Below, piece after piece: positions 2,649 through 10,677 of a DNA stretch of 32,011 nt. A program made the translations under genes and the position numbers. Below the pieces are notes generated by a model that saw nothing but the letters and a program-made list of their open reading frames with translations, was not told the origin of the DNA and ran no database searches. The stretch comes from Clostridia bacterium (GTDB lineage: Bacteria > Bacillota > Clostridia > Oscillospirales > QAKW01): NCBI GenBank assembly GCA_017436525.1, contig JAFSCX010000027.1, positions 1 through 32,011 of the forward strand, given 5' to 3'. How positions within the stretch are numbered: position 1 is the stretch's first letter; each line of letters opens with the position of its first letter.

Positions 2649-2672
2649 TGGGCGGTTTAACCGTCCATTTTT
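2648..2672 (+). terminator. Terminator of the AraC gene, between convergent genes
   Basis: ATGGGCGGT (2648-2656) pairs with ACCGTCCAT (2660-2668), including one G-T pair, around a 3-nt loop, followed by TTTT and further T-rich sequence. It overlaps the last base of the AraC stop and the stop codon of sigF on the other strand. On the minus strand the hairpin is not followed by a T run, so it should mainly stop plus-strand transcription. Confidence 0.75.
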
Positions 2673-3321
2673 ATTTATATTTATCTCTGAGTTCCTTCAA
2701 AATCTTCCGTTCCATGCGGCAGACAGAAACTTGGGAGAGCCCTAAAATTTCGGCAGTTTTGCTTTGCGTCTCTTCCTTAAAATAGCGCAAAACCAATAGG
2801 GAGCGTTCTTTAGGAGGGAGAGTAGAGAGCATTTGGCGCGCTACCACCCGATTGAGAGAGCGCTCCTCGGTAGATTCCATTTTAGCGGTAACGCCGCCCT
2901 CTTCCGGCGGAAGATCCAAAGAAAGGGTGGGGCGCACCGCATCTAAGGCCGTAATGATTTCTTCGGGAGACAGGTTTGTCCGCTCAGCGATTTCAGAAAT
3001 TTTAGGCTCTCTTCCCAAAATTTGCTCCAATTCTTTTTGTGCACGATCGATTTTTAACTTGTTTTCTTTATGCCTGCGGGATACTTTGAGCTCAGAATGA
3101 TCCCGAAGATAGGTTTTGATCTCTCCAATGATTTTTGCTACTGCATAGGTGGAAAATTTAATCTCACGCGCAGGGTCAAAGTCTCTTGCCGCTTTGATCA
3201 GTCCCATCGATCCGATTTGGAAAAGATCTTCCTCTTCTACGCCAAATCCCCGATATTTTTTGACCGCCATGCGTACAAGCCCTAAATTTTCTTCTACAAG
3301 GCGGTCCTTAAGGGTCGGCAT
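2671..3321 (-). CDS. sigF: Forespore sigma factor SigF (SpoIIAC), N-terminally short
   Basis: SigF is the first compartment-specific sigma factor of sporulation, acting in the forespore. The 216 residues contain sigma region 2 (EEEDLFQIGSMGLIKAARDFD, with FSTYAVAKIIGEIKTYLRD), the SigF/SigG-type segment LKVSRRHKE, region 3 (EQILGREPKISEIAERTNLS) and a region 4 helix-turn-helix (SKTAEILGLSQVSVCRMERKI). The order spoIIAA-spoIIAB-sigF identifies it as SigF rather than SigG. The gene begins 1 nt after the spoIIAB stop. An in-frame stop at 3337-3339 with no start codon in between fixes ATG 3321 as the earliest start. The protein is therefore about 35-40 residues shorter than B. subtilis SigF (255) at its N-terminus. 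The ribosome site is poor (AGG touching the ATG), suggesting translational coupling to spoIIAB. Confidence 0.93.
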   Translation of the reverse strand: MPTLKDRLVEENLGLVRMAVKKYRGFGVEEEDLFQIGSMGLIKAARDFDPAREIKFSTYAVAKIIGEIKTYLRDHSELKVSRRHKENKLKIDRAQKELEQILGREPKISEIAERTNLSPEEIITALDAVRPTLSLDLPPEEGGVTAKMESTEERSLNRVVARQMLSTLPPKERSLLVLRYFKEETQSKTAEILGLSQVSVCRMERKILKELRDKYK

Positions 3322-3322
3322 C

Positions 3323-3757
3323 CTATGGCCGAGCTTTTATGTATTTGGTGAGGGCGACTGTAGTCCCGCTTCCCCTGCGGGAGTGCACCTTTACCTTGTC
3401 CATAAAGGTCTCCATGATTGTAAAGCCCATTCCGCTGCGCTCTTCCTCATTGCCGGTGGTGAAGAGAGGCTCCATGGCCTGCTTGATATCATCAATTCCT
3501 TCACCTTTATCTTTGATGGTAATCGTAAGACGCCCCCCTTCATAAAGACGTGCTGTGATGGTAATAGGTCCGAAGGACTCTTTATAGCCATGGACAATGG
3601 AATTGGTTACTGCCTCGCTTACCGCTGTTTTGATTTCGCTGATTTCTTCTACCGTAGGATCAGCCTGAGAAGCAAATGCCGCTACCGCGATTCTTGCAAA
3701 CCCCTCATTGGCGGATCGGGAAGGGAAGGTGAGTCGAATATGATTGCTTGCTTTCAT
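3323..3757 (-). CDS. spoIIAB: Anti-sigma F factor and serine kinase SpoIIAB
   Basis: SpoIIAB binds and inhibits SigF and phosphorylates SpoIIAA, using a GHKL-type ATP-binding fold. In the 144 residues the N box is SEAVTNSIVHGY (47-58, with Asn52), the G1 box is DKGEGI (83-88), the ATP-lid segment is EPLFTTGNEEERSGMG and the G2 glycines lie at SGMGFTIM (108-115). Length matches the family (about 146). It lies 2 nt after the spoIIAA stop and 1 nt before sigF, the standard operon. A strong AAAGGAGGT sits 6 nt before the ATG, inside the end of spoIIAA. Confidence 0.96.
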   Translation of the reverse strand: MKASNHIRLTFPSRSANEGFARIAVAAFASQADPTVEEISEIKTAVSEAVTNSIVHGYKESFGPITITARLYEGGRLTITIKDKGEGIDDIKQAMEPLFTTGNEEERSGMGFTIMETFMDKVKVHSRRGSGTTVALTKYIKARP

Positions 3758-4074: not shown

Positions 4075-4085
4075 TGTTTTCCTCC

Positions 4086-4125
4086 GAAAAAAAGCAGTCT
4101 TCCGCTATTATAACGGAAGACTGCT
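4086..4125 (-). terminator. folC terminator abutting spoIIAA
   Basis: Read on the minus strand, a perfect 12-bp stem AGCAGTCTTCCG (4125-4114) with CGGAAGACTGCT (4104-4093) has a 9-nt loop and is followed by seven T (4092-4086). It lies 18 nt after the folC stop, and the next bases are the spoIIAA ribosome site. It should insulate spoIIA from folC/valS transcription. The plus strand also has a T run after the stem, so the structure is bidirectional. Confidence 0.9.
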
Positions 4126-4141
4126 GTATTTTTTTGTCGTA
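4107..4141 (-). promoter_or_regulatory. Candidate spoIIA operon promoter with 0A-like box
   Basis: A perfect TATAAT (minus strand, 4112-4107) occupies the loop of the folC terminator. The expected -35 position, 17 nt upstream, is a run of A with no -35 match. A near-match to the Spo0A box (TGTCGTA on the plus strand, 4135-4141, against TGTCGAA) lies 22 nt upstream of the -10, roughly -36 to -42, where Spo0A sits at promoters such as spoIIG. A transcript from here would start in the second arm of the hairpin and so could not form the terminator. The base matches are seen; the function is inferred. Confidence 0.4.
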
Positions 4142-4143
4142 AT

Positions 4144-5430
4144 TTAAGGGTTGCTGAAAATCTTTTTCAAAGCTTGCGCAATATCGCCGGCTGTATATAA
4201 AGAGCCGCAGGCGATGATCGGGCGGCCGTGGCTTTGCTCCTTGGCAAGAGCGGCGGCCTCCTCGAAACTGCTGCAATGGAAGACATTTTCGCAATAGGGC
4301 TCCGCAATATCCCGAATCTCATGGGCGGGAATTGCGCGTGGAAGGGGCGGCTCAATGCCGATAAAAGAATGGCTGAGAAGGGCCAGCTTTCTGATGGCAT
4401 ATTGATAGGGCTTATCCCTCATCATCCCAAAAATAATAATAGGCTCTTCAATATGAAGGGCAGAAATGCTTGAAAGAAGAGCATCAATTCCCTCTTTATT
4501 ATGGCCGCCATCCAGAAAAATGGCAGGCTGATCCCCAATTTTTTCCATTCTTGCGGGAATGTAGGCTTGCTTGATGCCGCTTTGCAGCTGCTGCTCGGAG
4601 AAGGTGAGAGCCCCTTTATTTTTTAAGCAATCTAACGCCTCTATGGCCGTAAGGGCGTTTGCAATCTGATGGGGACCTTGAAGGGTGAGCGTATAGGGAA
4701 TTCCTTTATATTCAAAAGAATTATTCTGCTCATCTAAAAGATTCAATGCTGCCTCATCAGCGATATAAAGAGGTGCTCCTTGCTCTTGGGCGCAGCGTTC
4801 GATCACTGCAAGCGCAGTTTCGGGGTTGCGTTGATATGCTATAATCGGGCAGCCCTCTTTAATGATTCCGCTCTTTTCATAGGCGATTTTTTCAATGGTA
4901 TCTCCTAAAATTGCGGTATGATCCAAAGAGATGGAGCAGATTACAGAGGCGAGAGGCTTTTGGATAATATTGGTGGCATCATAACGCCCGCCCATGCCGG
5001 TCTCCATAACCAAAAGATCGACTGCCTCCTCCTTGAAATAAAGAAAGCCAATCGCAGTTACGACCTCAAATTCATTGGGCGCTTCTTGCCCTGCCTGCTC
5101 CATAGCATTGCACGCGGCAGCGACACGCTTGCATAAAGCAAGAAGCTGCTCCTCACCGATCAAAGCACCGTTGATGGCAAATCGCTCTCTGAAGTCATAA
5201 ATAAAAGGAGAGGTGAAAAGGCCGGTTTTATAACCGGCCTCTTTTGTAACCGAAGCAATCATGGTGGCGGTAGAGCCTTTTCCGTTGGTTCCCGCAATGT
5301 GGATGCAGGGGAGGGAATCCTGAGGATTCCCAAGCTGATCCATTAAAGCCTTCATGCGGGCAAGGGTAGGCATCTTGCCGTGGGTCTTTCGGCTGTGTAT
5401 AAAATTTAGAGCTTCTTGATAATGATTCAT
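4144..5430 (-). CDS. folC: Folylpolyglutamate synthase / dihydrofolate synthase
   Basis: FolC is a Mur-ligase-family enzyme that adds glutamate to folates, and in bifunctional forms to dihydropteroate, using ATP in the cytosol. Over 428 residues it shows the P-loop GTNGKGST (47-54), the following segment [19 protein letters not shown], the [12 protein letters not shown] segment, the metal- and ATP-binding stretch [36 protein letters not shown] and the C-domain [15 protein letters not shown]. Length is normal (about 430). Its ATG overlaps the valS stop by 4 nt (ATGA), so it is translationally coupled to valS, a common Firmicute pairing. It is transcribed from the T-box-controlled valS promoter and stopped by the terminator ahead of spoIIAA. 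Folate polyglutamylation supports the one-carbon steps of the purine operon elsewhere in the window. Confidence 0.95.
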
Positions 5431-8059: not shown

Positions 8060-8322
8060 AAAAAATAAAAGCTCGTCTCAAAGAATAATCCTTGAGACGA
8101 GCCTTGAATTACATTCTTCAATACCCGCGGTACCACTCAATTTGCGCATAATATGCGCCTCTCGAAAGCTTTATCGCAGCTTACACGTGAGGGTCTAATA
8201 AAAGCATTCGCTTCGTTCTTCCTCAAGGCTCAAAAGCTACAACCCAAGAATCCACTTGTGCGGCTTGCACCATCCGCCGCCTCTCTGCATCCGGAATTTC
8301 TAAGGTCCTCTTCGTCAACACC
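8060..8322 (-). promoter_or_regulatory. T-box riboswitch (valine) upstream of valS
   Basis: The leader between the promoter and valS holds the conserved T-box core AGTGGTACCGCG (minus strand, 8137-8126), which pairs with the acceptor end of uncharged tRNA. It is followed by a terminator whose 5' arm can pair into the antiterminator. Upstream are Stem I elements: GAAGAGGA, an AGAGAG loop and GGTGCAAGCCGC. Adjacent GTT (8243-8241) and GTA (8240-8238) triplets lie where the specifier is expected, and both are valine codons; I cannot tell which is used without folding. By family knowledge, uncharged tRNA-Val would allow readthrough into valS-folC. Confidence 0.92.
8064..8102 (-). terminator. T-box-regulated terminator
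   Basis: On the minus strand GCTCGTCTCAA (8102-8092) pairs perfectly with TTGAGACGAGC (8081-8071) around a 10-nt loop, followed by TTTTATTTTTT. It ends just before the valS ribosome site and is the expression platform of the T-box. Confidence 0.9.
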
Positions 8323-10552: not shown

Positions 10553-10567
10553 ATTTTTTGTTTTAAG

Positions 10568-10638
10568 GTTCTTTGCAACTGACGGAATAAGTGGTGTACC
10601 ACAAGGGAACAAAGGACTATATTGCCGACCGTCTGGGC
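10568..10638 (+). promoter_or_regulatory. ZTP (pfl-motif) riboswitch aptamer
   Basis: The leader matches the ZTP/ZMP riboswitch plan. P1 is GTTCTTTG (10568-10575) with CAAAGGAC (10610-10617). Inside it are the conserved ACTGACGGA (10578-10586), a small hairpin GTGG-TGTA-CCAC (10591-10602) and AAGGGAAC (10603-10610). After a short linker comes the signature CCGACCGTCTGGGC (10625-10638), which closes the pseudoknotted second half. Its last bases form the 5' arm of the terminator that follows, so ligand binding would favour readthrough. ZTP signals shortage of 10-formyl-THF, which fits an operon for purine synthesis ending in fhs. The identification rests on motif recognition, not a covariance search. 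Confidence 0.9.
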
Positions 10639-10677
10639 GCCCTATTCCTGCTTAGGAATGGTGCGCCCTTTTCTTTT
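10635..10677 (+). terminator. Riboswitch-controlled terminator ahead of purE
   Basis: GGGCGC (10635-10640) pairs with GCGCCC (10663-10668); an inner stem of 7 bp (10642-10648 with 10655-10661) continues after one mismatch to a TGCTTA loop. TTTTCTTTTT follows. The 5' arm shares CTGGGC with the aptamer, the usual ZTP expression platform. Confidence 0.9.

Follow-up and report, generated by a model that had tools for sequence, protein, structure and literature searches.

A probable spoIIG-type promoter inside the folC terminator upstream of the spoIIA operon in Oscillospirales

Expression of spoIIA arms sigma-F and is a commitment step in sporulation. Plain promoters have a spacer of 17, whereas the spoIIG and spoIIE promoters of Bacillus subtilis, which use sigma-A and Spo0A~P, have a 0A box replacing the -35, a long box-to-10 spacing of 21-22 bp and a good -10; paired 0A boxes 10 bp apart are expected for Spo0A. 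The arrangement described here, between folC and spoIIAA, likewise has a 0A-like box in place of the -35, a long spacer and a good -10, but it serves spoIIA and has its -10 within a terminator hairpin. In C. difficile the same place before the same operon is taken by a sigma-H promoter: its spoIIAA promoter is a sigma-H -35/-10 with a mapped start (accessible part of PMC7438776), of the form AGGAATA-N14-GAAT, and not box-N21-TATAAT. For the Spo0A DNA-binding domain of C. difficile, the accessible part of PMC3485338 describes low-affinity binding to the DNA ahead of spoIIAA, spoIIE and spoIIGA. In Salmonella tufB-secE, the terminator of the upstream operon overlaps the next promoter and affects expression and fitness (Brandis 2019, as cited in the accessible part of PMC7055797). 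The present locus resembles tufB-secE in that the terminator of one operon overlaps the promoter of the next, and differs in genes and phylum, in the putative Spo0A-type developmental promoter and in the position of the -10 at the hairpin apex. As tufB-secE makes terminator–promoter overlap already known, it is the spoIIA arrangement that would be new and widespread; a literature search, with most subscription journals outside its scope, found no description of a spoIIA promoter placed in the loop of a terminator.

The window, meaning the whole 32,011-nt stretch of DNA analysed (Clostridia bacterium, Oscillospirales; GCA_017436525.1, contig JAFSCX010000027.1), carries valS, folC, spoIIAA, spoIIAB and sigF in this order on the minus strand. 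Judged from sequence, the 69-nt spacer between folC and spoIIAA is very probably a fused terminator and spoIIG-type (sigma-A plus Spo0A) promoter for spoIIA. A sequence-only reading of this DNA had proposed that the short gap holds a strong terminator whose T run reaches the spoIIAA ribosome site, that a perfect TATAAT without a -35 sits in the terminator loop, and that a near-0A box occupies the position used at spoIIG-type promoters; all of these features were recovered (Table 1). In the sigma-70 scan of the window, the loop TATAAT is not the -10 of any listed promoter spaced at 16-18 nt. An 0A-like box, a spacing within 21-22 bp and a sigma-A -10 are thus all present, and terminator and promoter physically overlap, the -10 being within the folC hairpin. 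A second 0A-like box 10 bp upstream, which is enriched in the wider group, is absent from the window.

Table 1. Features of the folC–spoIIA region of the window, listed in the direction of transcription
Feature	Positions	Strand	Basis and remarks
folC	4144–5430	-	TIGR01499, 366.9 bits (cut-off 162.65); stop codon 4146-4144; presumed target of hairpin termination
folC–spoIIAA spacer	4143–4075	-	69 nt
Near-0A box TACGACA (TGTCGTA on +)	4135–4141	-	Sequence; one mismatch to TTCGACA/TGTCGAA
Box-to-TATAAT spacer, 22 nt	4113–4134	-	Pattern match 4107-4139
Intrinsic terminator hairpin	4093–4125	-	5' arm 4125-4114, 3' arm 4104-4093; fold and terminator scan
-10 element TATAAT, in hairpin loop	4107–4112	-	Sequence
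Predicted spoIIA transcription start, in 3' arm	4099–4101	-	Inferred, 6-8 nt past the -10
Terminator T run	4087–4092	-	Scan
spoIIAA ribosome site GGAGG	4081–4085	-	Sequence
spoIIAA	3760–4074	-	TIGR02886, 72.5 bits (below cut-off 114.75); adjoins spoIIAB and sigF; ATG from 4074
spoIIAB	3323–3757	-	TIGR01925, 196.7 bits (cut-off 135)
sigF	2671–3321	-	Best equivalog TIGR02885, 205.5 bits (below cut-off 321.45)

The SigF of the window is short, at 216 aa, and together with SpoIIAA, SpoIIE, SpoIIGA and a sigma-H-like protein it scores well under its family cut-off, marking a lineage with several divergent sporulation proteins. Elsewhere in the window, a ZMP/ZTP riboswitch (10565-10645, plus strand, 61.5 bits) precedes a purine synthesis cluster and formate-tetrahydrofolate ligase. 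A strong terminator-like hairpin of 17 pairs (8068-8105, minus strand) lies directly upstream of valS, accompanied by TTGACA-N18-TATGAT at 8358-8329, and may be an attenuator; the window scan gave no T-box upstream of valS at the Rfam threshold.

The spacer hairpin folds at -26.3 kcal/mol (z -7.4), which none of 200 shuffles equalled; it has 12 Watson-Crick pairs, or 15 with those possible inside the loop, and with a stable stem that contains G+C and a T run directly behind it, it has the form of an intrinsic terminator. The stem is not a repeat, as the stem half GCAGTCTTCCG occurs at just two further places in the 1.75 Mb genome, and a repeated element was ruled out as its origin. RNA from the predicted start would fold at -3.0 kcal/mol, against -26.3 kcal/mol for folC read-through RNA; such an RNA would be unable to form the hairpin, in agreement with the earlier proposal that a transcript begun in the second arm escapes termination.

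A perfect -10 in such a loop may have a trivial origin, as TTATAA is its own reverse complement and for that reason suits a hairpin loop. The hairpin would then be the folC terminator only, with TATAAT a by-product of an AT-rich palindromic loop, and spoIIA would be read leakily from an upstream promoter, either a sigma-H promoter in folC or a weak sigma-70-like candidate (9/12 matches) found by the scan at 4170-4141, just upstream of the loop TATAAT. Such an upstream start has a parallel in the mapped sigma-H start of C. difficile spoIIA (accessible part of PMC7438776), and a sigma-H-like gene is present in the window genome; we nevertheless consider it unlikely. RNA from 4170-4141 would contain the whole hairpin, and RNA from any upstream site would include the entire terminator. 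The box stands at a fixed spacing to the -10, and other terminators seldom have a loop -10: a match of 5/6 or better was present in 16/50 terminator hairpins at most 130 nt upstream of spoIIAA compared to 16/311 of the remaining terminator hairpins of this DNA. The latter 16 include two spoIIA hairpins read on their opposite strand, and with these two removed from both counts the contrast gives a Fisher value of 7e-8, relatedness being ignored.

Within the window genome, TATAAT with a T run and GGAGG occurs at 12 places. The 11 besides spoIIA were examined for hairpins; one (L130, -17.1 kcal/mol) has a hairpin over TATAAT and the hairpin finder reported none at the other ten, by which a general habit of this genome was ruled out. 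The pattern CGACA-N19-24-TATAAT occurs at five places, compared to seven for the backward pattern, and is therefore not significant genome-wide by itself; among the four places other than spoIIA, one precedes spoIIE.

The family sample comprised 12 genomes including that of the window, and spoIIAA was found in 11 of them, six of the genus and five others, all 11 having folC upstream on the same strand (BLAST). The sequence-only reading had looked to relatives for joint conservation of the loop -10 and the 0A-like box, and counted against itself any that kept the hairpin without them. Hairpin, box-like site and loop -10 are kept in 6/6 members of the genus, with TATAAT in four and TACAAT in two, and with TACGACA, TTCAGCA, TCCGGCA, TTCGACA, ACCGACA and ATCGACA as the box-like sites 21 or 22 nt upstream. 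Among the other family members, 4/5 keep the box, the 21-22 nt spacing and a -10-like loop; in the second genus the loop hexamer is TATAAT in one and TAATAT in three, at the same place. The proposed co-conservation is thereby supported, less well by the three TAATAT loops and with one misfit, G007, where the best hexamer at spacing 21 is TAACCT and lies in the 5' arm; the T run of the G003 hairpin is weak. With G007 left out, the centre of the -10 is 0.5 to 1.5 nt off the hairpin centre in all ten family members measured.

In an alignment of these ten sequences, 9/12 stem pairs are changed on both sides and 96.7% of cells remain paired, while pairing drops to 35-58% in slid controls. From this comparison, what is conserved in the stem is the pairing, its bases being exchanged freely, whereas in the -10 and the box the letters themselves are conserved. 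The pairing would matter only in RNA from upstream, because RNA starting past the -10 lacks the 5' arm. The covarying stem with a kept -10 is the strongest single argument, pointing to a working folC terminator and a working promoter element in the same DNA.

The comparison was extended to the order with 110 loci, taken as two sets of 30 and 80; removal of five second copies with identical upstream DNA, and of L026, which was too short, left 104 rows. These include near-copies (L119, L121 and L122; also L076 and L077), and relatedness among the genomes inflates all of the survey counts. A motif learner seeded with TTCGACA and TATAAT was run on the 104 spoIIA upstream regions with a threshold of 9 bits, and the learned motif was T-T-C/T-G-A-C-A and TATAAT at a spacing of 21 (82%) or 22 (17%), these two spacings making up 99% of the motif weight. 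It reached at least 9 bits before spoIIA in 74/104 rows compared to 1.7% of shuffles, the remaining 30 rows falling under the threshold; the 74 rows represent 72 contigs, since L065, which was retained, is on the same contig as L011, and L089 on that of L023. In 3084 windows from the same loci, some containing the spoIIA region itself, the motif reached this score in 3.0%. A second survey drew on 99 genomes, 91 of which have spoIIAA; apart from the 30 that had already supplied loci, 60 of the other 61 were taken (G023 was left out), and as L185 (G051) was too short, 59 further genomes remained, one row of which, L163, is on the same contig as L122 of the first set. The motif reached at least 9 bits in 43/59, with 1.7% in shuffles, and fell below in 16. 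As the start of the motif learner was set by hand, a count over every spacing from 10 to 32 served as a freer test: strong matches to both elements numbered 34 at spacing 21 compared to 0.6 in shuffles, and 7 at spacing 22 compared to 0.2, the next highest counts being 8 at spacing 12 and 7 at spacing 24.

These data also bear on whether the promoter is real but independent of Spo0A, TTCGACA being a widely spaced -35, which we hold to be slightly less probable still than a start upstream. TTTGACA-like variants exist, with T at the third box position in 34%, and the window box is one mismatch from the 0A core. C dominates this position, however, as it does in the 0A core TGTCGAA (accessible part of PMC3485338), and a spacing of 21-22 is far from that of plain promoters. 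A second box-like site 10 bp upstream also speaks for Spo0A in the group, although the window lacks it: the mean score at this offset was -4.9 compared to about -11 at most other offsets, and 7/73 exceeded 3 bits; a lesser mean-score peak at offset 13 likewise had 7/73. The layout is, moreover, common to spoIIE and spoIIGA.

The latter two operons serve as an internal comparison. Spo0A (227.6 bits, cut-off 200) and SigE (361.6 bits, cut-off 339) are both encoded in the genome of the window, and its SpoIIE and SpoIIGA are the best and only family matches, both under their cut-offs. The spoIIE promoter reads TCCGACA-N21-TATAAT and that of spoIIGA TTCGACA-N21-TATACT. When 5 spoIIE and 11 spoIIGA upstream regions of the genus and family were scored by the spoIIA-trained model (L137 had no upstream DNA), 14/16 reached at least 14 bits, the others being L155 (9.0) and L156 (8.7), and the best site had a spacing of 21 in 16/16. 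As spoIIE and spoIIGA share the spoIIA promoter layout, spoIIA is grouped with these partner operons. No terminator hairpin was found in the 130 nt upstream of spoIIE or spoIIGA in any of the 16; of the three partner operons, spoIIA is the only one whose predicted promoter is wrapped in a terminator. A separate feature of spoIIGA in the genus is the distance of 12 nt from the first base of the -10 to the ATG in 5/5 matches (L146-L150; G002 had no match), which would place the start at or beside the ATG; from these positions spoIIGA looks leaderless in the genus of the window.

Across the order, the terminator over the -10 is mostly seen where folC is near. If folC is no more than 160 nt away, rows of at least 9 bits have the -10 covered by a hairpin with T-rich tail in 25/26 in the raw count and in 24/25 after the removal of the duplicate L089, which was also taken out of the tree, Fisher and placement counts. 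In other contexts this was seen in 6/48 motif rows, of which 22 have a hairpin upstream of the promoter and 20 have no hairpin in 150 nt (Fisher 1e-12, relatedness ignored). Four rows have folC within 160 nt and a motif under 9 bits, L009 and L050 with the hairpin and L010 and L075 without it; for L064 and L082, promoter and terminator are fused with no folC found upstream by BLAST. The -10 is at the hairpin loop or top in 23/73 compared to 6.1 expected if it were placed at random within these sequences, while any overlap of hairpin and -10, at 30 compared to 19.1, is in moderate excess only. With a start 7 nt past the -10, the RNA would lack the 5' arm completely in 27/30 overlap rows, the exceptions being L021 (94% lacking), L096 (67%) and L115 (61%). 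Of the further genomes, 16/43 with the motif overlap a hairpin, in ten family codes; nine would lose the entire 5' arm, one 94% and six 64-74%. Counting f1 and f18, the overlap is seen in 12 family codes altogether. On a tree of SpoIIAA, SpoIIAB and SigF made by a quick method from 103 rows, with L050 counted as overlap, overlap needs 10 changes when scored on the motif rows, folC adjacency needs 9, and the labels are clustered.

A covarying stem acts in RNA from upstream, and this is also what would be seen if spoIIA had a long leader read from upstream, in which the hairpin served as a regulated attenuator, with control by antitermination. Yet the minimum-energy and centroid folds of the spacer are the terminator itself, and 43/74 motif rows have box-N21/22-TATAAT without an overlapping hairpin; of the readings considered, we give the attenuator the least credence, and it is very improbable.

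Hairpins of other kinds were also seen before spoIIA. In L109, L110, L116 and L117, the 0A-like box overlaps one hairpin arm, and the hairpin tail points to the -10 (TTTTTATACT in L109); in this different type of fusion the hairpin fills the box-to-10 spacer without holding the -10. In L119, L121, L122 and L163, there is an inverted repeat upstream of spoIIAA, TTTGACAA...TTGTCA, which stops 3 nt short of the -10 and may be two facing 0A-like boxes and not a terminator.

With regard to sigma-H, AGGAWW-N14/15-GAAT is absent from the 250 nt upstream of the window spoIIAA, and no sigma-H promoter was found there. The strict motif is present in 4/9 rows on the Clostridiaceae side (including Clostridium tepidiprofundi and Fervidicella) compared to 2/94 others, which further disfavors a start upstream of the hairpin; on the same side, three rows from named Clostridium species (L072, L108 and L079, the last being Clostridium paridis, one of the 74 rows with the Spo0A-type motif) do not show it. 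Relaxed scores over all rows were at shuffle level for at least 9 (62 compared to 63) and above it for at least 10 (24 compared to 13) and for 11 (5 compared to 0.4). As the window genome has a sigma-H-like gene (132.6 bits, cut-off 294.8), the promoter would be what changed and not the presence of sigma-H. The comparison makes a change of promoter class within Clostridia likely, with sigma-H on part of the Clostridiaceae side and a Spo0A-type promoter in most others.

In the mechanism favored here, polymerase arriving from folC would make the full hairpin and T run and stop; folC message would then not feed spoIIA, as this polymerase halts at the hairpin. At high Spo0A~P, the regulator would bind the box at the -35 position and, in the manner of spoIIG and spoIIE, bring RNA polymerase with sigma-A to the TATAAT that lies 22 bp further downstream, with spoIIA transcription starting at about 4100 inside the 3' arm. 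Lacking the 5' arm, the new RNA would be unable to form the terminator and would continue past the T run, giving spoIIAA a leader of about 26 nt. The same 33 bp would thereby be a terminator to polymerase from folC and a -10 and start region to polymerase recruited by Spo0A~P. The compact device for insulation and activation that the sequence-only reading envisaged gains support from the kept box and -10, the covarying stem and the similar layout at spoIIE and spoIIGA.

It is conceivable, though doubtful, that the overlap is in addition a switch through which spoIIA reads folC transcription and growth together with Spo0A~P. Because every folC transcript passes through the box and the -10 before it ends, Spo0A and polymerase would be swept off the promoter as long as folC is actively transcribed. 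If this were true, spoIIA could fire only after a fall in the growth-linked transcription of folC, and the order would have rewired spoIIA from sigma-H to Spo0A plus transcriptional interference.

The locus would be a clear case of one short DNA read in two ways, as a stop for upstream RNA and as a start for RNA beginning within it, and it cautions annotation that promoters and terminators are not mutually exclusive. The promoter survey suggests that much of this order, mostly uncultured gut Clostridia, drives spoIIA from a spoIIG-type promoter and not from sigma-H, and that in 12 sampled family codes this promoter is fused with the upstream terminator. With a spoIIG-type promoter on spoIIA, the spoIIA, spoIIE and spoIIG operons would share one input.
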